Source: Ectocarpus siliculosus
Lineage: Eukaryota > Sar > Phaeophyceae > Ectocarpales > Ectocarpaceae
NCBI GenBank assembly: GCA_000310025.1
Contig: FN649740.1
Location: 4,563,343-4,627,342, forward strand
Reading direction: 5' to 3'
Length of the DNA: 64,000 nucleotides
Shown: positions 21,590 through 50,648 of the stretch, piece by piece
Layout: every line of letters begins with the position of its first letter
Position numbering within the stretch: the stretch's first letter is position 1
Notes under the pieces: generated by a model
What the model was told of the DNA's origin: nothing
What the model saw: only the letters and a program-made list of their open reading frames with translations
Database searches by the model: none
Translations under genes and position numbers: made by a program

Positions 21590-22060
21590 ATGATTACCCG
21601 TCGGCACCCGTAGGGTGCTACACCACCGATACCAATGGATCGCTACCCACGGTTATCACCACGGGTGCCTGTGGCTACCCACGGTGACGACCATGGGCTA
21701 GCGTTAGGCATCAGTTTGGGTGCCCATGGGTCACCATGTGTGTGGCCATGGGTCACCATGGGTACCCACGGGCAATACCCATGGGTACCCATAGGCATTA
21801 CCCGTGGGAACCATGGGTACCCANNNNNNNNNNNNNNNNNNNNNNNNNNNNNNNNNNNNNNNNNNNNNNNNNNNNNNNNNNNNNNNNNNNNNNNNNNNNN
21901 NNNNNNNNNNNNNNNNNNNNNNNTCCTCGTCTCCCTGCATATGTGTGGGTGACTCCCCTCGGTACCCATGGGTATTGCCCGTGGGTACCCATGGGTATTG
22001 CCCGTGGGTACCCATCGGCATTGCCCATGGTGCCCATGGGTACCCACGGGGTAATTCCAC
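21590..22060. repeat. GGTACC/CCATGG minisatellite with assembly gap
   Basis: Tandem copies of a unit of about 23 bases, containing the palindromes GGTACC and CCATGG, flank a run of exactly 100 N (21824-21923). On the right side the unit GGTACCCATGGGTATT.. recurs at 21961, 21984 and 22007, a strict 23-base period. Left of the gap the copies are more diverged. The 100 N are a placeholder, so the true array length is unknown. Open frames through it are repeat artefacts. Confidence 0.9.
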
Positions 22061-25331: not shown

Positions 25332-26309
25332 AAAAGATCACGAAAAGACCTTGGCGTATCTTGATTATTGTTGCCTTCCTACGATACGCAGTTTGTGTTG
25401 GTTGTCGTTTGACTGGTCTCGCAGTGTATGGAAGACGTAGCTGGTTACGTTATGCATGCTGTTGGTGAGCCTCTGTGTCACGAAAACCTCAGCCATCGAT
25501 CTAGCGTTGTACAAGCGGCACGCCTTACTATCCCAGAAAGCTAATCGACGGCGCAGCTGCCATCGTTTTTCCTCATACCGATACGTCGATTAACGCGTGT
25601 CTCAGCAAGCGTGATGAACTTGGGCATGACGCTACCATCCAGGTAGCTTTAGCGACACGTATTGAACGTTGGTTGTGGTGATGATGCACGAAGACGTGCA
25701 GCCTAGCGGCAAGGGCTTGGGACGGGGCTTCGGACGAGGGTTAGCTACTAGGGAATATATATAGTCGTCGTTGGGGGCACACACCTCCTTTTCTTGGTTA
25801 TGACAGAGAGCACCATCACCGCCCGCACTCCCGCTCATGGTGAAACCGCAGCGAAACGGGGTCTTCTTACACACACCTATAGACTGCGTGAGACAGGCAG
25901 TGTTGGCAGCCGCATGCATGTAGCAAGCCGCGGCGGCTGGTGGCCACAACAACCAAAATTATTACATGTAGCCATGTCCATCTTCGCAAACACCGTTTTA
26001 TGGGGGGGGGGGGTCGTATGCATACCGCACCCCGCTCGTGGATGGCAACTGGATGGCACATGGCTACACCCCACAAACACACAGCACCAAATCCAATCTA
26101 CTTTGCACGGGCATCGCCCTCAATACTACATTAGCAATCCGCACACGTGGCCTTTCCTGTGGTCATTGTCCCACGCTGCAGCCTACAGCAAAGGCTGTGC
26201 CTACCCACCAAAGACTCGTCTTCATGGACGGTCGACCTGGAAAGCTCATCAAACTAGAGTCTGTGGTCCGGGAGGTCTTGACGAGGAGGAGCCCTTCAGT
26301 AGGGAACTG
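25332..26309. other. Stretch without a recognised gene
   Basis: Open frames exist on both strands but none shows a motif or a credible exon chain. Minus-strand Cys-containing frames near 25870-25950 could be leftovers of the adjacent transposase N-terminus, but the Cys spacing is not diagnostic. A G13 run lies near 26005. Confidence 0.35.
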
Positions 26310-27084
26310 CACTACGCCCGGCTGCGGGTGAGCCTAATGTTAGCTTGCCTTGGTATCTTCATGTCGGTGACAACGGATCTAGAGTGAGTGCAGTGCTTTT
26401 GTTCGACCCCGACGCCAGGTGAAACTAGTAGATCATGACGATTCATCTGGCTAGTCTACACATACATGCAGAGCACCGTATATATATAGTAGTTCCTGCG
26501 ATCCTTTGCGTGAAGCATCGGGTGCATACCATGCAAAACTCCCTCTGTTACGCGCCCTCCTCCCGTTTTCGCTCCCTTCGCCCCCTCACACACAAAGCCA
26601 CACAGCACGCCTCACACACATCAAGAACGACCAAGGAAACCGATACGAAGAAAACAAAGGTGAGGTGGAGACAATGGACAATGGTCTCTAAATTTTCTGG
26701 TGGGGAGGGACAACCATGCTGCTGTTCAAAGTGAATGAACGGGCTACCGTAGACTGTACCGTGAACGGCGGCTAACCTGTGAGAGGGGGGAGGCAGGCGG
26801 GCCGATATCTGTTCTTCAAAGATACTGGCGACAACGAGTGTGTGTGATGGAGTTCAATTGGGCGTATTGTACTCAGGTCTGCGCCCCGTACGTGCTGCTC
26901 CACAACAAAACTGTGTTTGCTGATCCGCGCCCCCAAGAACGCGTACTCTATGTTAGCCCACCAACCTGTAAATACCCTGACTTGACCTTCCGCGCGGCCC
27001 TGGTGTGCTGCCGCTTGCTTTGTTGGTGTACTTGCCGTTTTCGTCGCTGCTGCCTGTTTTCGTTTTATCTGACGCGCGACATAG

Positions 27085-27163
27085 CACTTTGGAATGGGGA
27101 TCAGCCATCACCGATTTTCCCGACTGGATGTTCGAGAATCTTGCGGCTGTGAAGACGCGGCGA
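27085..27163 (+). pseudogene. LRR exon cassette (ITDFPDWMF type)
   Basis: After an ATAG acceptor the frame reads SAITDFPDWMFENLAAVKT, matching the LRR pattern N-x-L/I-x-x-L/F-P-x-x-x-F-x-x-L. It ends at CGA|GTGAGT in phase 0, unlike the neighbouring cassettes, so it probably cannot join them in frame. Confidence 0.55.
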
Positions 27164-27872
27164 GTGAGTCAGACCCAGTGGAATGTGCTTACTGGTACTA
27201 CCATACAGTGATCAGACGGATTAATCAATCTAACCCAGCCCGACCAGCCGTTTGCCCTCACGGGCTGATTTTCGTATTGAGATACTACTACTGCAGTGCC
27301 ATATGTGGCAATAAACAGCTCGCATCAAAGTGAAAATGACGGCACTTTGTACTCAATCAAGCGTGGCTGCTACAGTAGTACGTATTAGACAAGCTGTGTC
27401 AATCTTGCCGTCCTACCGAAGGGCTCGAGTCCAAGATCATACCTTGAGAGCCGCTCTCATGCATGACCAGGCCCATCCTCAATGCCGTCCCCCGAGCGGG
27501 TTCACGACAGTTCCGCCCGGTTTTCAATGAGTCAAGTTGGCTGAAAATATCCTCATAGCGTAGCCCACAAGAAGGGGTACGGGAGGGCTCACGGGATGGC
27601 TCACGGAATCAGCGGGGGGTAGCTGACATCAGCATGGTTCAGTTAGTTTTGTCTACAGCGTATTCATGGGCCAAAGATTGACTTACGAAGATCTATGTTT
27701 ACCACCCAAGCAGCTATCGATTGCTTCTTCATCTCAGTGTCGAGACTTTCTGCACCGTTCATTCTATCTGTTCTGCAAATACCTTCGACCGACTGGCTAT
27801 CACAAAGACTGTTCGTGCTCGTCTTGGTGGAAACACTTTGATGTATCGTTGTGTACGGTACTCACCATACAG

Positions 27873-27950
27873 GGTGATTTCCAGCACGAAGGTCAAGACG
27901 CTCAACTCGGGACTATTCGACGGCCTCGGCTCCTCTTCGCTTGCACACGT
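27873..27950 (+). other. LRR exon cassette (LNSGLFDGL type)
   Basis: Acceptor ACAG, donor GTGAGT, 78 bases (1 + 25 codons + 2). The frame reads TKVKTLNSGLFDGLGS, a typical LRR core with GLFDGL. Same entry and exit phase as the cassettes at 28226 and 30039. Confidence 0.6.
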
Positions 27951-28225
27951 GTGAGTCATCACCAATCACGTGTCTAGTTGCACACAACGCTAGGATTAGC
28001 CGGTACATTGTCATGCATACGTGTTTGGCTGTTGAGTTGCCTATGCAACAAGATATTGTCGACATGGCTCTCTCCCCCTCGCAGTCATTGTTGTGATGCC
28101 TACCCATGCGTGTGGCCGCCAGTGTGCCTGCGACCAACGTCGGTTCAGAAATGGGTCGTTTTTTATGCTGCCAAACGTGCTTTACTACGCGCCTTCTTTG
28201 TTTCCATCATTGTCCCATACTATAG

Positions 28226-28300
28226 GGGCATCGCGGCCTGCCCAAAGCTGACGGAGCTTCCTGCTGATCTCTTGGCGGTGATTCACAACATTGGATTTGT
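28226..28300 (+). other. LRR exon cassette (CPKLTELPADLL type)
   Basis: Acceptor TATAG, donor GTGAGT, 75 bases. The frame reads AACPKLTELPADLLAVI, with the Cys/Asn position, LTELP and a leucine-rich end, as in an LRR. Phase-compatible with its neighbours at 27873 and 30039. Confidence 0.6.
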
Positions 28301-29112
28301 GTGAGTGATTGCAAAAGTCTTCACAGTAGTTGTTTCGTGACCTACGTGGACACATTTCTTTTCCACTCGAATACTGCCGTTGAACACGCAAAGGCGAAAC
28401 TCACACATTTACACCGGCAAGAAAACACACCCAAGTCCTGTTCAATTCCGGTATGTTGTACATTGACCGTGGTAGCCTTGGTTTATCGTGTAAAGCATAT
28501 GTGGTGGTGTGGACGGTACAGGCTCGTTCCACACACAGGCCAGGAGCTCAAAGCTCGAACGCTCGAGCCCGAGCTAAGGCGTTCTTGACCTCTGGGATTG
28601 GCTTGTCTCCCCGCTACATAACGTGTTGCTAGTGGGAAAATTATGTCGATTCCATTGTTCACAAGCACCCTCCTGTGGATATGACGACAAGAACGTTCCA
28701 CGGACAAGGCCGGGGTCAGCGATGTGGTACTCAAAGTATGCGCGCATCTGCATGGATGGACGGGCGTGTTGGACCAACCCGACGTTCCGTGGAGTCAAAA
28801 TATGTTTTTTTTTCTCCACGGACGAGCTGCTACATACCTATGGAGGCTCTCATTGCCTAAACCTGCGCGTTTGTCCAACTGCGGTCGTCTTTCCTGAAGG
28901 CCATGGATGAGATCACCTGTTGTTGCTTTCATACTAGCCCATTGGCAGCCATGCTCCCGGTTGGTGGCATCCGGTTTTTTCAGCGATTGTTGCGCAAAGA
29001 TGTCCCGCCCGCTCTGACATTTACCCACATTAGATTCAATGTGTAGCTTGCGTTCTGTCATCGTTGTTGGCTGAATGGCCTCTGACGACAAGCCACTGCT
29101 GCTGCCGAACAG

Positions 29113-29180
29113 GAGGATTCAGAAAAACCCTGAGCTGACGACTCACCCCAATTCGAGTACAACAATAAGCTCGGACAGAT
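29113..29180 (+). pseudogene. LRR exon cassette, worn (NPELTTHP type)
   Basis: Acceptor ACAG and donor GTGAGT are intact. The frame reads IQKNPELTTHPN, clearly LRR-like in its first half; the second half has lost the GLF..L residues. Its length of 68 bases breaks the phase shared by the better cassettes. Confidence 0.5.
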
Positions 29181-30038
29181 GTGAGTGACGCTCAGTTGAG
29201 GCAACAGGTGAGTCACACTACTAGTTGATGTATTATTTTGGATTATGAAGCCCCCATTCGAGAATGGTATCCCGCAAGACACACATTCACTTTTTAACGA
29301 AGACCTCGGAGCAAACGTATGGAACCCCAGCAATCATGTAGGAGTTCGGTTCCCGACGAGACTTGTGTTGAACGTCGTACTGTGTATCCACGGATCGAAG
29401 CTTTGTGGCAGAGGTGCAAACTCCGAGGATACTCGGTGAGATGTTACATAATGAAAGTACCCATCCGGTGTTTGCAGAGATCTGTACAACAACCAGACTA
29501 CCGCTCGGAATTTTCGATGCGCTCCATGAAAGTCTGCTACTTGCTAGTGAAACATACGGGAAGCAGGCTTGGGTGTAACAAGTATCCCTCGAGGTACCGC
29601 CGGCGCCCTCTATGGTTACAGGGATAGCGGTGTAGTGCGCCGACAACATGTTGCGAAAGATTTTGTTGCTCTACGCATCGTATTTATGAAGACGAATCAC
29701 ACCTCGACGCCAGGGCGGGTAAAGGAGTGCTGTAAACAAACAGCACCATGGTTGTCGGATGCGGGTACGGCCGTCCCAATCGGGAAAATATTTTGAAGAA
29801 GTCTTTCATCGTCACCACAATTTCTAGAAGCTTCGAAAGGCGGGGAATAATTACTTGTGAAACAAGGCAAGTACGCTCGCGGTACAAGTTCTGACAGGAG
29901 ATGGTGCGTTGCGTCACTGCTCGGCCTGGTATCTACTGGAATAGATCGAAAACCTGTAGTTTGTTTACCAAGATCTCAACAAACCGCCGACCGCTTGTTG
30001 GCTCTTCCGCCTGTGTTTGTTTGTATTGCTTTGGAAAG

Positions 30039-30110
30039 GGGCATGCCGACCAACCCGCTCACGACGCCTCCTGCCGGTCTCTTCGAACCGATGACATCGC
30101 TGGAGCAACT
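30039..30110 (+). other. LRR exon cassette, best preserved (72 bases)
   Basis: Exactly 72 bases (24 codons) between AAAG and GTGAGT. The frame reads TNPLTTPPAGLFEPMTSLEQL, an almost textbook repeat with N-P-L-T-T-x-P-x-G-L-F and SLEQL. A 24-residue, phase-symmetric exon can be gained, lost or shuffled without a frame change. Confidence 0.7.
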
Positions 30111-31472
30111 GTGAGTCACCGGTAGCTTTAAATAGATTGGTTTGGCTATGTATTCAGCACGGTTGGTTGTACCTGGACTTAGACATGTTTTGAGAGAGAG
30201 AGAGAGCGAGAGAGAGAGGTTGAGAACAAGAAGGCTCAGCTCAGCATGAGGTCCTCACATTTGTAAACTACTGGTATTGTACTGCAATCCGCAGATTTTG
30301 CCCAACATGTCCGTCTGTTTCCGTCGTTCTTCCTCAACTCCTTTGGTCTTTGATCGCAGGCGGCTAAACAAGAATGCGCGCATGCAGTGCCTCCCTGACA
30401 GGTAAGATGCGAAAAAGTAGCTCCAGATACAGGGACCTGAAACTCGCACGCGGTTTTCATTGGCATAGTCTATGGGCACGCCTCGTAGCAAGCAATATCA
30501 ATAAGCAATAGCATAGTTTTGAACACATGACCTAGCTGCTGTTGCCGTCCTGCGATAACTCCTGTGAGTGATTTGAATTCGATTTTTTGACTAATGCGTT
30601 CCGGGTAGCACGCTGGTGGATACGTTCAACAATCGACATACGTCATGTCGTGTTTCGCGTCCAAGACTCACTTGGTGTCTTTACACGATGCAATGCACTC
30701 TCGCCTCATTTTTATTGCTCGGTCATGCCCCTACGTGGGTGTCCTGGTCGGTCAGCCTGTTTGCAGCTCTGCACCGTACGTCAAATTCGATGACAAGGAA
30801 GGCACCTGCGGTGAGTGCGTAGTCTAACGTTCCTTGTCCTCCTGTGAAGTTGCCAATCGGAGTCTTCTACCACCGGAGGGGTCCTCGAGAGTATCCAAAC
30901 ACTTCGTCGTTGCCGTTAAGGCCACGCCAGGCTCCTCGCCGCCACCTGTGCCCCCAGGGCTCCGTGATGGTGTTTTTTCTCCCAACCATGTGCTCAAGTA
31001 TATTATTATTTTTCTCACAGGCCAAACTGCTACATCCAGAAGAAATCCCGAGCGATGCCCCCGCCGACTCCCCGCCGACTGCCGTAAACAATCTAAATTA
31101 TCACCTGTCGCGCTTAGCCCTAGGAGACACAAACCTCTACATCTTTTGGAGAAATCATACCAGCTTGAGCAACCCCGTCGATCAAAACTGTGCGGCTTTT
31201 CAGTTTAGACCTTGTAGCGCGAGATCGAGGTGCTTGAAGTTTGGCGATTTGAGCACAATCCGGCCGAGATTTTTGGTGAACCATCGCAGCAAAAGCGTGC
31301 TTCAGTTGCAGACAGCTACACCGAGCACACCACAAGGTAGGGTTGCTTCTACTCGTCGTGGAATGGCTCCGGGCTGTGTTGGTTTTCTTGGCAAATTTCG
31401 TTGTCTCTGCTACATTGTTTGTTGTGCCGTTAACCGCAACATCCTCTTGCATTCTGCGCGTTTCTTGAACAG
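30111..31472. other. Region after the LRR array, no recognised gene
   Basis: A (GA)n tract lies at about 30191-30219. A GTGAGT donor-like site at 30553 follows a segment without clear LRR residues. A 337-codon open frame starts at 30844 and runs to 31857; it has no recognisable domain and no sign of selection that I can see. I leave it unannotated as a gene. Confidence 0.35.
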
Positions 31473-31552
31473 GGTGCACCCCTGCCAATGCCGTGTCGTG
31501 CCCCACGGGAACTACGTACTCTCCCGGAGATCCGGGCTACACTTACATGTGA
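31473..31552 (+). pseudogene. Cys-rich exon-like segment
   Basis: After the acceptor TTGAACAG the frame reads CTPANAVSCPTGTTYSPGD and continues to a stop right after TYM. Cys-Pro-x-Gly-Thr patterns of this kind occur in extracellular Cys-rich repeats (GCC2/GCC3- or EGF-like). Because it follows the LRR cassettes on the same strand it might be the extracellular tail of the same former gene. No donor follows before the stop. Confidence 0.35.
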
Positions 31553-34500
31553 ATAGTCTAGATTTCGGATGTGGGGGTGATATCGATCATTGCGGTGAGG
31601 ACTACTACTACTGTAGTAATGTGGGGATAACTGAGGACGCGGAAACGCAGGCGAAGGAGTTTTCTGTGTACTTTTTTAGTGTGATCGTAGTCAGTACGAG
31701 ATCAATGCGACCACACGTGTATCGCCGTCCAGCTTCTTATTGTGGAGTTTTCAGTGAAGATTCGCACCGGCAGCCAGTCTCGTACGTGAGCACTGGATGG
31801 AGCATAGACTACTGTAACATATTGTGTGTGTGGAGTAGGCCCCGTAACATAATCTAGTTAGGTGGACCTCGCCTAGGGGCCTTGCATTTTTCCGGAATAG
31901 AAAAACGATCCTACCTGATCTTATTATTATGCAACTCGGGAAAATCAGCGTTAGACTGTAGGTCTGCAGGTTGCCGTTGCAGGGCCTGCAGCATGCTCGG
32001 CCAAACGTTCACGTTCGGCGAGGTATGTGTAGTGGAGTCGATTTAGAGTGATTGAGTGGTGGCAAGTAGAGCGTTGTGATTCGTGTGGTGTTTACGTATA
32101 TATATGTAGTGGTGGCGCGCTTTGTATGGCATTGCACGGCACGTTGCTAATGGTGAGGGATCCGGGAATCTTTCTACCTCTGTGTGTAAGTGTGTGTGCA
32201 TGAAGTACACGGACGTACAACAGCAAAAAAAAAACAACGTTGGCAGGAGACGGCAGGGGTGTGAAACCAACATACAAGCGGTCTGCGGAGTAGACCAGAT
32301 CTTGACGTACAACAAATAATATCATTTGTCGGTCGCCGTCCACCCTCTTTTCGCGAAAGAGATTGGTCGAAAGCCTATTTGGCTTCGTTGGCTTTTGATG
32401 GAGGTATAAGGGCGGCGTTTTCGGAGAAATCCGCATTTTACGTCGAGGGAGGAGGATAGTATGCTGCCCTGTGGTGACATTTAAGTTGCAGGGTGCATCA
32501 CACGCACCGGTCGATGCGGAAATTCCTATCGGGGGAACGAACCGAGGAACGTTCGGATACCCGTCTGAACCCTGTTTCGGCTGTGTCGGCATTTTGTGTT
32601 TCTCCACCTCGTCTATCTACCTGGGTTCACGCTCCACACCACACATATATAGCTTTAACCCGGTGTCTACGACGTCAGAGGTTAAACCCGAGGTCGCCTT
32701 GTACGCGATCAGCCTGTCACCTATTCGCGCTCATCTACCGCTGCACCTCCCAAGGCACGCTACTCAAGCGCACGAGGTACGGCAAACACCGCAAGGTATT
32801 CATCATGTATGTATGCACTGGCATGGGTAGACTGTTTTTTTCAGCGCCCGATATTGTAACAGATGGAGTTTGCCCAGAGCCACCTTGCTTGGTGGGCGCA
32901 TTTGCCATGATGCATTAGCAAACAGTGGCAACAGCAGCTACACAGTAGTGCGATACTTCGCAGGCACAGCAGTTTCTCTGCTCTGTACTGTAGTTCGGCA
33001 CTAGAGAGCGGGCGGGAAAACGGGAAGAACTCTGCTTGCTTTTACCAGCTCCGACGCTCAGTATTCCCCTAAAACCCTCTCTCTAGCGACAGAGGGGGAC
33101 TGCGTGCAACCCAACGATGCATACCAGCCTGAGTTTTCGGGAGTACGGGGAGTTTCCTCCCTCTGTCGAACTTCCCTGCTGCTCCACCTCGATTTCACCC
33201 CACGAGTCTGCAGGGTCACCAGAAACGCGGCGGAATCACGAAAAATAAGTTCTTTGGCCGAGAGTCCCATGTCCAAGGCAGCCCAGCGAGAGTGCACGCG
33301 CGGTCTATTCCCCACCAGTTCACCTCTCCATATTTGCGGTGTAGACTAAGGAGAGAGGTGCATCACTGGGTGTTTTTCAGATCGACGTAACCTGCGAACG
33401 GCTTCCGCCCTTGGTGGTACATACACTCAATCGATGTATCAAACGCACAGCGTGTTCAACTTCGTATTTGGAGCCAGTTTGGCTTGACTGAACTCATATC
33501 TTGCGGCATAATTGGTGGCAGCAAGTAAATCGCGTCGTCCGTCGATACATACCTCAGCCAATAGACGGTGCCGACAAGCTGGTTTTGCTGCTTTCCCTTG
33601 CAGCACCCCAGGGGAGGGATGTTTTTTTTTATCTTTGAATTCCTTTAACTGATCAGAGTTGTTCTGTCCTTGTATGCGCAGTCTCAGGGCCCTTCGGAGA
33701 CCTGGACAACGTGTTTGGACAAGTTGGGACAAGCATCAGTATGCTTACAGCAATATTAGTATGCTTACAGCACTCTCAGCCCGACCCTGGCTTTTTCTCC
33801 CTCTACTCCGTGAACCCTTGCGTTCGGCCTGCGAAGACGGTATTTCCTGCGAACTTGTCCACCGTACGTTCCGTGCGGTTCCACTCTTGAGCGACGTAGA
33901 AATGCGACGTGATGCACACATCCGGACTGACAAAATGCGGGCGTCAGTCACCCGTTTCTAGCCGAAACATTTTTGCCTGAAAAACTTTGGTTGACCAAAT
34001 CAATGTTAGATACCACTCGCCCCGTCGAGACTTCAAACTCTCGGGCGGCCCCTATTCTGCAACCTACCATAACACTAACTTTGTAGCGCCTGTCAAGGCT
34101 TTCTGGGACTAAACACGGATACCAGCCATTGTAAAGTTGAGGGTCGCCACCTCCGGGCATGTTGTTATTTACTGTGCAATTTTTATCTACGACACATACG
34201 CCATGCACCAGGCCACGTCTCCCTTTAGTTTGGAGTATTTTAGCTCATAGTTCATGGGATCAGGTACCACCACTGCTGTACATTCCGCACCGCTCCTGTC
34301 TCAACGGCTGTGGGAACAAACATCATCTTCGTTATGTCCGCAGTTTTTTTATGTGGTTGGTGGCCAACATGAATTCAAGGCAGCGGTAGGTTAGCTACTG
34401 TAGATATATTGCGTCGTCGCCGAACTGACTGCTTCCTCATCACAACCCACGTACATTAGTATCTGCCACGTAAGCGTTCATATGCATAGAGTCACGAAAA

Positions 34501-35715
34501 GTAGTCCCTGAGGGCAACGGTGTGGGGTGGGGGCCCCACATACGTGTTTGTGACGTGCCTGTGCTCGAGGTCAGTTTCTTCAGCTGCCCGCATGAATACG
34601 TTATCGGATCTTGAGTGGGATAGTTGTGTTATCAGGACGTGAGATACCTGGACCTCTCTGCATAACCAGATGCCGAGAAGTGCGGCGCAGTTTTACGAAA
34701 ACATGCAACAAATCCAAGAAAGGCTTTCCTTTCCCTGCCCAGTCGTGAGGAAACGCTGAAATTTGTGCGCCTGTACCTCTATTTTTGCAGGTTTCTTCAT
34801 CGCTCAAGAGGGGATATATTTGAGAACTCTTGGCTGCCAACGCTGGTACTACTGTCATGAAGTGCATCGAATGCAGCGCCCTAGGTGGCAACATCGACGA
34901 GGCGAGTGTTCTTCCTTGTATTTCTTTGTACTTCACGTCTGCCAAAAAGTGGTAATCTCTACTTCGGTCCCTACTCTGTTCCATGGCTGCTGGTTACAAA
35001 ACCACGAACGAACGGTGAACGAAGGGTGTATCGCAACATAATGCATAGAGGACCGGGTGGAACAGGGCGGTTCACGAGAACTGCTATCTGCAGATTCCCA
35101 TCGGGCAGGCCGTTTTTCCTTTCTCTGGTTGGTTGGCATTTCATAGGCGCAGCTCACCCAGGGGCCTGCAAGAAGCTCAAATATATGCAACTGTATTTTT
35201 TTGTCCGTGTGTGCGTGCATTTGTTTTTTCTTTCACCGCGGTCGCATCCGCCTCGGCCGTGTGTGCGTGTCCAGCGGTGGTGAGTGTCTGATGCCTCTAC
35301 ACCTACGCTGCTGCTGAGCACCGCATGGCCTGGCTTTTCGGCATATTCGGGCCCAGCCATCTGTTTTCTTGCTGGACATGTGCGTATTATTAAACGAAGT
35401 ACAACTATCCAATCGTGTGGTCTCACGAGGCTTTGGTAGCACCGCACGTAACATACACATCCAACAGCCCTCCCTGCCATCCTCCCTCCCCCGACCGAGC
35501 CCTGTCCGAAGCCAAAAAGCCGCTCCTCTACGGACACACGTCGTGCTTGGCGAGGTTATTTGTTTCCGTCGTCAGATACTGCTGCTACTTCTTCTCCTAC
35601 CCTTTATGGAATCGTGCCGCATGCCACTCATGGTGTGTTTGTTTCCGAACAGTATCTGCTCCACGCTGCTGCACTGCCGTTGCTACACGAACACGTCGCG
35701 CGACAGGTCCTGAGC
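31553..35715. other. Four-kilobase stretch without a recognised gene
   Basis: Both strands were read. Frames such as complement(33948..34208) are open but carry no known motif and no good splice context. No repeats longer than simple A/T runs were noticed. Confidence 0.35.
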
Positions 35716-38700
35716 ATGTCGTCGGACGCCCCGAAGCCGGGTTCGGAAGAGGTCCAGAAAGGCAAAGGCAAGACCATGATCGTCAAGGTGGAGGCGTGTT
35801 CGCTCAGCCGGGGGGACAGCATCATGTTGGAAGGAAGCTGCGATCTGGTACGGGATGGAAAGGGGGTGCAGCTGGCTTGTCTCATGTTCTTAGTGGCGAT
35901 ATGTAACACTTCAACCGTCTTGCTGTCTTGGTTGACTAATTCGGGTTACGACTGAGAACACCGTCAAGAGCCTTGCGTTGGTTGAGATGTTTGTTGCCAG
36001 TTGGATTATCTGCCATTTGTACTTCTCTCTCGAACTCTTCCCGACTCAGAGTTTGGACCAATCGAACCAGCCGTCGAAACGGCGTAAAACCTATGAAACA
36101 TCTCTGTACCGTACGGTCTTGGGGGATCCATATCTGTCTTGTGTGCCATGCCCTGTACTCGAATGAATCACGAAGACCGACCGGGACTTAGCGCTGCTGC
36201 ACCGAGAGTGAGCGACCAGGCTCTAAATCCTTCAACCGTTGTTCTTTTCATCCTCGTGGCAGATGCTGAACCCGAAGCTCCCGTTTGTACCGGGCATGGA
36301 CATCTGCGGGGTGGTGGAGGAGGTTGCAGAGAACTCGGAAGCGTTCAAGGTACGTTTCACGGAATTCCACGAAAGCCTTGAAACAGGATTGTTGGGACGA
36401 GTGTAATAGTCACTTCACTCGCACGGAAGCTAGCGTGTGCCATCGAGAGCGCGTTTTTCACGGAAGTAGTGACAACCCGGGCACGTTAGAGGATGCAACA
36501 CCCCGTCTGGCAGCGTGGCCCCTGCTGTTGCGATGTGTCCCGAGCTCTTGTGCGTCCTTCGCCGGGAATGGAGCCACTCGTTTCCCTTGCGTACAGAAAG
36601 CACACTTATGGACCAGGGAGCAACATGAGAAGTTCATGCCTCAATAGAGATACATACGATAATTTGGAGGTAAGGACAGTTGTCCAGCTAATAGTTCTAC
36701 ATGAAAACCTAGGAGCATCATAAGAAGTCATGCCCAAATAGAGATGCATGTGATAAATTGACTGCAAGAACAGGCAATCAGCTAGGAGTTCTACATGAAA
36801 ACCTAGAAGCCGATGTTGGGTCGCCCCCATAGAAGAAGCACGAAACGAGCCTAGGACGAATAATCAGTGGCTTTCTATAGGTGTAGTGAAGAAGGGTGCG
36901 TTGCTCTCACCACAATAGTATCCCTATAATAGCACGCTCAGAGACAGCAACGGGAGGCAGGGACTATGCCCACTGTAGATCAGGAAAAAGGGCGGGCACG
37001 TCTTGTTCCTAGTAGGCGTTGGTCGGTACGTTCTTCTCCGTGGTCGTACTTTTGACTTGAGTTCAATTGCTGTGAACGCATAATCTCACTTGTGCTTCTT
37101 TTCTCCGTTGTTGTTCTTTCCCTTTTGGGGGTTGTGCAATTGTTTTCCCGCGTGTTTCTTTTCCTGCCTTCTTTCGGGCGGAATTGTCGGCATTAAATGA
37201 AGGACCAACGCAGGTTTCGGATTGACACCGGTTCAACAACTGTATCACCCCATCAGGACATGTCAAGTACCATGTCACTTTCCCGTTTTTCGATTTCTCT
37301 CCCCCTTACCCGACCTTGTTGAAACAATATCAATCCACAGAATCAGAAGAACCAAACTACATACAACCATCAGGCACATTTTGTCTACGACCCCACCGCT
37401 ACGCCTACGCTCGTGTCGGTGATGAGACCTGTGTGAGTCGTGAGGTCGCGAAAACGGAGACGAACCGCGGCTTTTGTGCGTGGAGCAAGCATCGTCGCGG
37501 ACCGGAAGAGCGAAACGGACGAGACGCCCCCCCTAACCCAGCACCCTTTGCCGTGATGATTTCCCCAAGGTGGGGGACCGCATCGTGGCGACGAACGGGA
37601 TGACTCCTACGGGGGGCCTGGCCGAGTACGCCGTCGTCCAGACCAATAACGCCGCAAAGGCACCAGCTAACATCACCCCGGTTCAGGCCTCGGTGCTGCC
37701 CAACAGTCCCATCGCCGGCCTCCACGCCGCCAAGGTTTGGTTGGTGGTGCTCTGCTTTTTTTTTTCGGTTTCACACTCACGCACTTTTGTGGGATGATTA
37801 TTCAAAACCCGTCAAGTGTGGGGCTACTATCCCCTATAGACCAAAGTGGTGCGGATTCCTATAGTCCCTCTCTCTCTCTTTGGTGTCTGCCACTTTCATA
37901 TAATACCAGCGCGTTGAGGGGGTATGCTCTCGGCCAAAGTAGTCAGCGCTGACTGCTTTAGTCTACGTGGGATGGTATCCCCTCGAGCCTAAGGAAACCA
38001 CCAAGGTTTAAGTTTGCAACAGTGATGCTCTTACTTTCAGAGAAGACACGCGCATCAAAACACCCAAAGGAGTTGTCGAAGCGATGGGTTGTTCGGTGAT
38101 CCTCTTTCCCCCTGTTACCGTGATCATGGTAGGCGGCGAAACTGAAAGAAGGGGACCGGGTGATGGTACTCGGAGGCAGCGGCGGCGTCGGCTCGGCGCT
38201 GTTGCAGCTCGTCAAAGACGCCAAGGTGCGTATTTGCTTGTGAACAACAACGTGCGTGCTTTAGACCTCGAGTAGATGTATCGGCTTCGGGGAAATTGAA
38301 CTAAGAGGGAATATTTAGCAGCAAAGCCGGGTCTTCGCAGAGAAAAAGTGGCTTGTGGCGGCCATGAGACGATGAGTTCCTAGAACTGGGTACGACAAAC
38401 CCGGATCTACGAGAGTGTTTATGGCTTGCCTCGACCCCTTCTTGAACCATAACCACGACTACGTGTGTATAATAACTGTAGCGTCGACCGCTTAAACTGA
38501 CTGGCCCATGAAAGGACGTCAATATTAGCTGCCACGGGGGGTGACGTGTGCGTTCGTGATTTATTTCTTCCTTCTTGTTTGCATCACTGTGAGACAGACA
38601 ACGATAAGCAGCGTAACCTTGTGTTTCACTTGTTCCCCCAACAACAGGCGTCATTTTTGGCAACCACCTCCACCGCCGAAGCCCTGTGCCTATCTCTGGG

Positions 38701-50182: not shown

Positions 50183-50648
50183 AGGGTTAGGTGGTGCATT
50201 CTACTGTCATCAGTAGAGGGCACCATGAAGAGGTGTCGTGCGTGCTGGCACGTTCAGGTTTGCTACTGGAGCTGAAATGTTGGATTGTCGCAGCAGCCTA
50301 TGAAAACAGTCCGAAATCTGCGCCGGAACCAAGCGGCATCCAACATTTGTCATAGCTGTGTTGACCGCCACGGACCATAAACCCCTGAACGGAGGGTTGT
50401 CAGCAGTAGCTGGTGGCATCAGCTACTGCTGTTAATCCGCGGTTCAGGAGATTGGGTTCAGTGGCGGCGAGCACGGCTGTGACAAATGTTGGATCCCGCT
50501 TGGTTCCGGCGCAGATTTCGGACTGTTTTCAGAGGCTGCTGCGACCTTCAACATTTCAGCTCCAGCAGCAAACCTGAACGTGCCAGCACGCACGACGCCT
50601 CTTCATGGTGTCCTCTACTGATGACAATAGAATGCACCACCTAGCCCT
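50183..50648. repeat. Near-perfect 466-bp inverted repeat (foldback element or hairpin)
   Basis: The left arm starts AGGGTTAGGTGGTGCATTCTA and the right arm ends with its reverse complement with few changes. The symmetry runs almost to the centre near 50415, where AGCAGTAGCTGGTGG faces CATCAGCTACTGCT. The arms are about 230 bases with few mismatches, so the RNA would fold into one long hairpin. No protein frame fits. I see no clear target duplication at the ends. It could be a foldback or MITE-type DNA element, or a young hairpin source of small RNAs. Confidence 0.85.

Follow-up and report, generated by a model that had tools for sequence, protein, structure and literature searches.

Between 27.08 and 30.40 kb of the analysed window, a 64-kb stretch of the Ectocarpus siliculosus genome, seven segments on the plus strand (e2 to e8 in Table 1) each encode one leucine-rich repeat (LRR) or a part of one. 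Four of them, e3, e4, e7 and e8, are open frames that are preceded by AG and carry one leading and two trailing bases (phase 2/2). The frame is broken in three of the seven LRR pieces (e2, e5 and e6), and the remaining exons are open. An earlier sequence-only reading of the region had described a series of one-repeat exons ending in GTGAGT. This description holds for e3, e4 and e7; it fails for the segment at 26310-26384, which matches no LRR, and for the piece at 29478, which is not followed by GTGAGT. The same reading had assigned a common entry and exit phase to 27873-27950, 28226-28300 and 30039-30110, all of which are indeed open and of phase 2/2, and had regarded other segments as drifted, in agreement with the out-of-frame pieces found at about 27085, 29113 and 29478.

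Table 1. Segments of the LRR exon array and its inferred ends, with positions counted from the first base of the window.
Feature	Position	Strand	Remarks
e1, possible first exon (MLACLGIFMSVTTDL)	26337..26383	+	hydrophobic, phase-2 exit at GTGAGT; weak candidate
e2, LRR piece	27085..27163	+	phase-0 exit in the LRR frame, clashing with the phase-2 entry of e3
e3, LRR exon, 78 nt	27873..27950	+	phase 2 in and out, AG before, GTGAGT after
e4, LRR exon, 75 nt	28226..28300	+	phase 2 in and out, AG before, GTGAGT after
e5, LRR piece	29113..29180	+	AG and GTGAGT kept; repeat halves in different frames; weakest LRR case
e6, LRR piece, approximate end	29478..29546	+	repeat halves in different frames; poor donor
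e7, LRR exon, 72 nt	30039..30110	+	phase 2 in and out, AG before, GTGAGT after
e8, short LRR exon (RLNKNARMQCLPD), 42 nt	30360..30401	+	phase 2 in and out, donor CAG/GTAAGA (cut at the slash); beyond 26310-30110
e9, inferred tail exon (SAPYVKFDDKEGTC)	30767..30810	+	enters in phase 2 and leaves in phase 1; GTGAGT donor at 30811; chosen by eye
e10, inferred last exon (CTPANAVSCPTGTTYSPGDPGYTYM, stop TGA)	31473..31552	+	phase fit and stop; chosen by eye

When all 1471 frames of 66-81 nt that run from AG to GT with phase 2 at both ends were scored on both strands against an LRR consensus, e7, e4 and e3 were the best three. They occupy ranks 1-3 among the 805 plus-strand frames with scores of 8.0-10, and the top of the 666 minus-strand frames reaches 7.5. 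Scores of at least 8 were obtained by three of the 1471 real frames, as compared with a mean of 0.3 and a maximum of 2 in 60 dinucleotide shuffles (mean 1228 frames); a frame scoring at least 9.5 arose in one of the 60. The combination of a score of at least 8 with a GTRAGT donor, present in e3, e4 and e7, which all have GTGAGT, never appeared in these shuffles, so that the LRR resemblance exceeds that of shuffled sequence. Since the consensus was composed after the exons had been seen, the comparison with proteins of known structure carries more weight.

In a phmmer search of PDB, the spliced e4+e7+e8 peptide drew 57 distinct chains with E<=0.001. First among them is OR464 (E 4.1e-20), which we take to be a designed LRR protein. 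It is followed by LRRTM, by chimeras of Toll and variable lymphocyte receptors and by variable lymphocyte receptors, with Slit lower down. The 57 chains are LRR proteins by name or, in the case of some (OR464, O13, RBC36 and Tn4-22), presumably so. Single segments gave concordant results: e2 alone (27080-27163) matched seven chains (best E 1.7e-4), e3 alone (27874-27948) three (best E 0.0065) and the second half of e6 nineteen (best E 1.1e-4), all of them LRR. As a control, the three plus-strand frames that come next were spliced; the product matched no LRR chain in PDB, and its single chain was a myosin light chain at E 1.7. The segment at 26310-26384, previously taken for an LRR segment, matched no LRR and no PDB chain at all at E<=10, which leaves this assignment unconfirmed. 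With the Pfam family LRR_8, for which the cut-off is 27 bits, the complete spliced peptide reached 13.9, and neither the three-exon peptide nor the segments 27874-27948 and 27080-27163 matched any Pfam family at E<=5. Despite the sub-threshold Pfam score, the tandem repeats match known LRRs, and the predicted product would accordingly be classed as an LRR protein. The likeness to variable lymphocyte receptors, Toll and Slit, which are among the best PDB matches, concerns the type of repeat, and we claim no membership in these families.

A home-made LRR profile, rebuilt with each piece left out in turn, recovered three of the seven pieces, namely e7 (equalled by 0 of 1795 background stretches), e6 (1 of 1822) and e5 (8 of 1833). 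It missed e4 (equalled by 756 of 1752), e3 (456 of 1887), e8 (1013 of 1775) and e2 (no match). We rely on the PDB comparison because this profile is weak evidence. For e5, at 29113, the profile provides the whole LRR case; taken singly as repeats, e5 and e8 have the least support. When applied to the 64-kb window, the profile found nothing convincing besides the seed exons.

The array had been thought to extend from 26310 to 30110; the frame continues past this end, and both e8 and the inferred C-terminal exons had been missed. The junction of e7 and e8 reads SLEQ-L-RLNKNARMQCLPD. The exit phase of e8 fits the acceptor before 30767 (e9), and the phase-1 exit of e9 fits the acceptor before 31473 (e10). 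The joined chain e3-e4-e7-e8-e9-e10 is open, and e10 ends in TGA. The exons e9 and e10 thus likely encode a short Cys-containing C-terminal tail with a stop. As this tail has no relative in PDB, the case for the two exons is made by phase, splice signals and composition. A further plus-strand stretch overlaps e10 in a different frame: it is stop-free from 30823 to 31854 (344 codons, the second longest in the window), and its open stretch at 30823-31851 has no Pfam match at E<=5. At the other end of the array, the hydrophobic ATG exon e1 (26337-26383) might weakly be proposed as the start of the gene. Among 18 frames on both strands that run from ATG to a phase-2 GTRAGT, this exon ranks second in hydrophobicity, and its GC3 is 0.53.

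Splice signals and composition were compared across the region. Among the 22 GTGAGT sites on the plus strand of the window, nine fall within 26384-30816; for two sites, at 29208 and 30564, no exon could be named. The pyrimidine tracts of the acceptors are average in e2 and e3, where 46% of all AGs are equally good, and for the other exons this share is 8-30%. Over the 124 codons of the intact exons, the third-position GC content (GC3) amounts to 0.70; the 39 codons of the tail, taken separately, give 0.67 (0.64 in e9 and 0.68 in e10), the 67 codons of the frame-broken pieces 0.61, and two exons of a neighbouring dehydrogenase gene 0.82. Set against these third positions, the GC content of the introns is 0.50 overall. 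The GC3 signal is modest, since the mean for open frames of the background is 0.56 and, among random frame triples, 3.8% equal e3, e4 and e7 in GC3 richness.

We favour, at a probability of roughly 0.7, the explanation that the array is the eroded 3' part of one LRR protein gene with one repeat per exon and phase-2 introns, whose function has been lost or is being lost. Its repeats would follow the type xLxxNxLxxLPxxLFxxLxxLxx, resembling those of extracellular LRR proteins, and each phase-2 intron would cut just ahead of the beta strand of a repeat, the strand being placed from the motif. The intact exons would splice in the order e3-e4-e7-e8-e9-e10 into a Cys-containing C-terminus with its stop; here as throughout, we infer the step from exons to mRNA. 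Such a gene with lost or fading function would either be a pseudogene or still yield a short product in which the dead repeats are left out, the first being no less likely than the second. A short product is possible because symmetric phase-2 exons let dead repeats be skipped while the frame is kept. Any protein made would be small, a binding protein of the LRR type that might be secreted. The suggestion of the sequence-only reading that the locus may be the wreck of one receptor gene comes close, in that one LRR gene with some dead repeats is the likely source; the receptor part of it found no counterpart in the 69 plus-strand frames scanned around the array (see below).

A live short gene, starting from e1 or another start exon and running through e3, e4, e7, e8, e9 and e10 around the dead repeats, would also account for intact exons that share one frame down to a stop, for the upstream hydrophobic ATG exon with its phase-2 exit and for a GC3 still as high as 0.70 in the intact exons. 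We nevertheless consider it unlikely. The piece e5 retains both an acceptor and a GTGAGT donor, the use of which would disrupt the frame; about three whole repeats are left, few for an LRR domain; and GC3 is lower than in the neighbouring gene.

In brown algae, the obvious comparison is with the LRR-ROCO genes, reported by Zambounis 2012 as relayed in the available parts of later papers. According to the accessible text of Teng 2024 (PMC11378527), their LRR exons measure 72 bp, are termed phase 2 and contain a 17-residue core, LxxLxxLxxLxLxxNxL, in each exon, and many brown algal ROCO genes may be pseudogenes. The present array likewise has one LRR per exon, and both the exon format and the decay would suit a wrecked LRR-ROCO (LRR-ROC-COR) gene. 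However, the ROCO core sits inside the exon, whereas it does so in none of the four segments e2, e3, e4 and e7 here (0/4; the best anchor counts are 4/7 in e3, 5/7 in e4, 2/7 in e7 and 3/7 in e2). Instead, the core straddles the splice junctions: joining e4 to e7 rebuilds it with 7/7 anchors, and joining e7 to e8 with 6/7 (M and F allowed in both cases). The lengths differ as well, the intact whole-repeat exons measuring 72, 75 and 78 nt. The 'nucleotides 3 to 71' given in the available text of PMC11378527 imply two bases before the codons and one after, the reverse of e3, e4, e7 and e8, and because of this reversal the naming of phases in that paper may differ from ours.

The ROCO genes also have ROC-COR downstream, which is missing from the frames scanned here. 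At E<=0.5, ROC and COR had no match in 69 plus-strand frames, out of 81 distinct frames listed, that run from stop to stop over 45 residues or more within 25752-35952; the scan covers exons of that size. Nor did the 69 frames yield a credible Pfam match for any other receptor body or signalling domain: ten families appeared at E<=0.5, one frame each, and the best of them (E 0.0097) was an unrelated viral family. With the array in addition probably closing in a short tail, an origin from an LRR-ROCO gene is highly improbable.

The other proposal of the sequence-only reading, a store of shuffle-ready exons, belongs to an idea already published, as far as the available text of PMC11378527 goes. 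There, 15 LRR-only sequences of Saccharina japonica (ROCO excluded) were termed a possible reservoir. The Ectocarpus array resembles them in having LRR exons without ROC-COR, and its three exons of common phase could be moved without loss of frame, as expected of a reservoir that lacks a receptor body and gives repeats to other LRR genes. The Saccharina set, however, was found through its 72-bp exon length (PMC11378527, accessible part), and here a probable C-terminal tail of its own and three broken pieces among seven accompany the repeats. The DNA also speaks against such a store. The 5.3 kb at 26300-31600 contain no direct or inverted repeat of at least 20 bases (11-base seed), and only one of 21 exon pairs, e4 and e7 (47/67), is alike in DNA beyond all 100 shuffles. 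The rest of the 64 kb has no similarity to the region at E<=0.1, and nothing within the window points to a recent duplication or exchange. We accordingly give very little credence to a reservoir, and the store proposal finds no support in this window.

Nothing found ties the exons to other loci. The spliced e4-e10 peptide (minus e3) gave five pattern matches in IMG/VR and 39 in a collection of prokaryote genomes, none confirmed in either; such scans pick up nothing but close relatives, and algae are outside the intended content of both collections. A live donor, from which in-phase cassettes would be copied into expressed LRR genes and in which broken cassettes would be tolerated, as they are never translated here, is likewise hard to credit. 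Were the locus a true donor, it would be one on which to test whether exon movement diversifies the immune receptors of brown algae. Our literature search returned no report on Ectocarpus leucine-rich-repeat pseudogenes, and the accessible parts of PMC3879662, PMC8307928 and PMC3268121 treat LRR proteins in brown algae and contain no such locus.

Outside the brown algae, the LRR genes of Tetrahymena built from 90-bp exons, as presented in the available text of PMC6564038, are similar in stringing together LRR exons of a single length class with phase-2 introns between them. They differ in that their exons are exactly 90 bp and that the genes number in the thousands, with evidence of recent expansion, whereas no sign of recent duplication accompanies the present array. 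The locus looks like an ordinary fading gene and not a store of spare exons. A decaying LRR gene with one repeat per exon is easily mistaken for a 'reservoir', and anyone counting LRR-only reservoirs in brown algae should first look for a C-terminus and for breaks in the frame, and compare the register of the exons, before shuffling is invoked.

Several other features were noted in the window. A plus-strand gene resembling alcohol dehydrogenases has its first exons at 35716-36350 (Pfam ADH_N, E 3.7e-8, two joined exons). The plus strand at 50311-50521 holds a full-length Rfam MIR8622 hairpin (211.9 bits against a gathering score of 197; fold z -21.6), MIR8622 being, as we take it, the name of an Ectocarpus siliculosus microRNA; together with the GC content of the window, about 53%, it would point to Ectocarpus or a close relative as the likely source. 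This hairpin was rejected as a regulator of the array: its best mismatch score was 6.0 against e2-e10, equalled or bettered by 18 of 20 shuffled hairpins, and 4.5 against 26301-31600, equalled or bettered by 14 of 20. In the main text of the Ectocarpus microRNA paper PMC4513859, as far as available, '8622' appears a single time, as part of a PubMed id, and the literature found under miR8622 concerns land plants by its titles. A KDZ-type transposon was considered on the minus strand at about 22.9-25.3 kb, where frames resemble a degraded transposase by eye, and was discarded for lack of Pfam support; according to the accessible part of PMC12477816, 1.8% of the Ectocarpus genome consists of KDZ elements. 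Finally, at 21717-22050, tandem repeats of a palindromic unit of the GGTACCCATGGGTA type flank a run of N on both sides.
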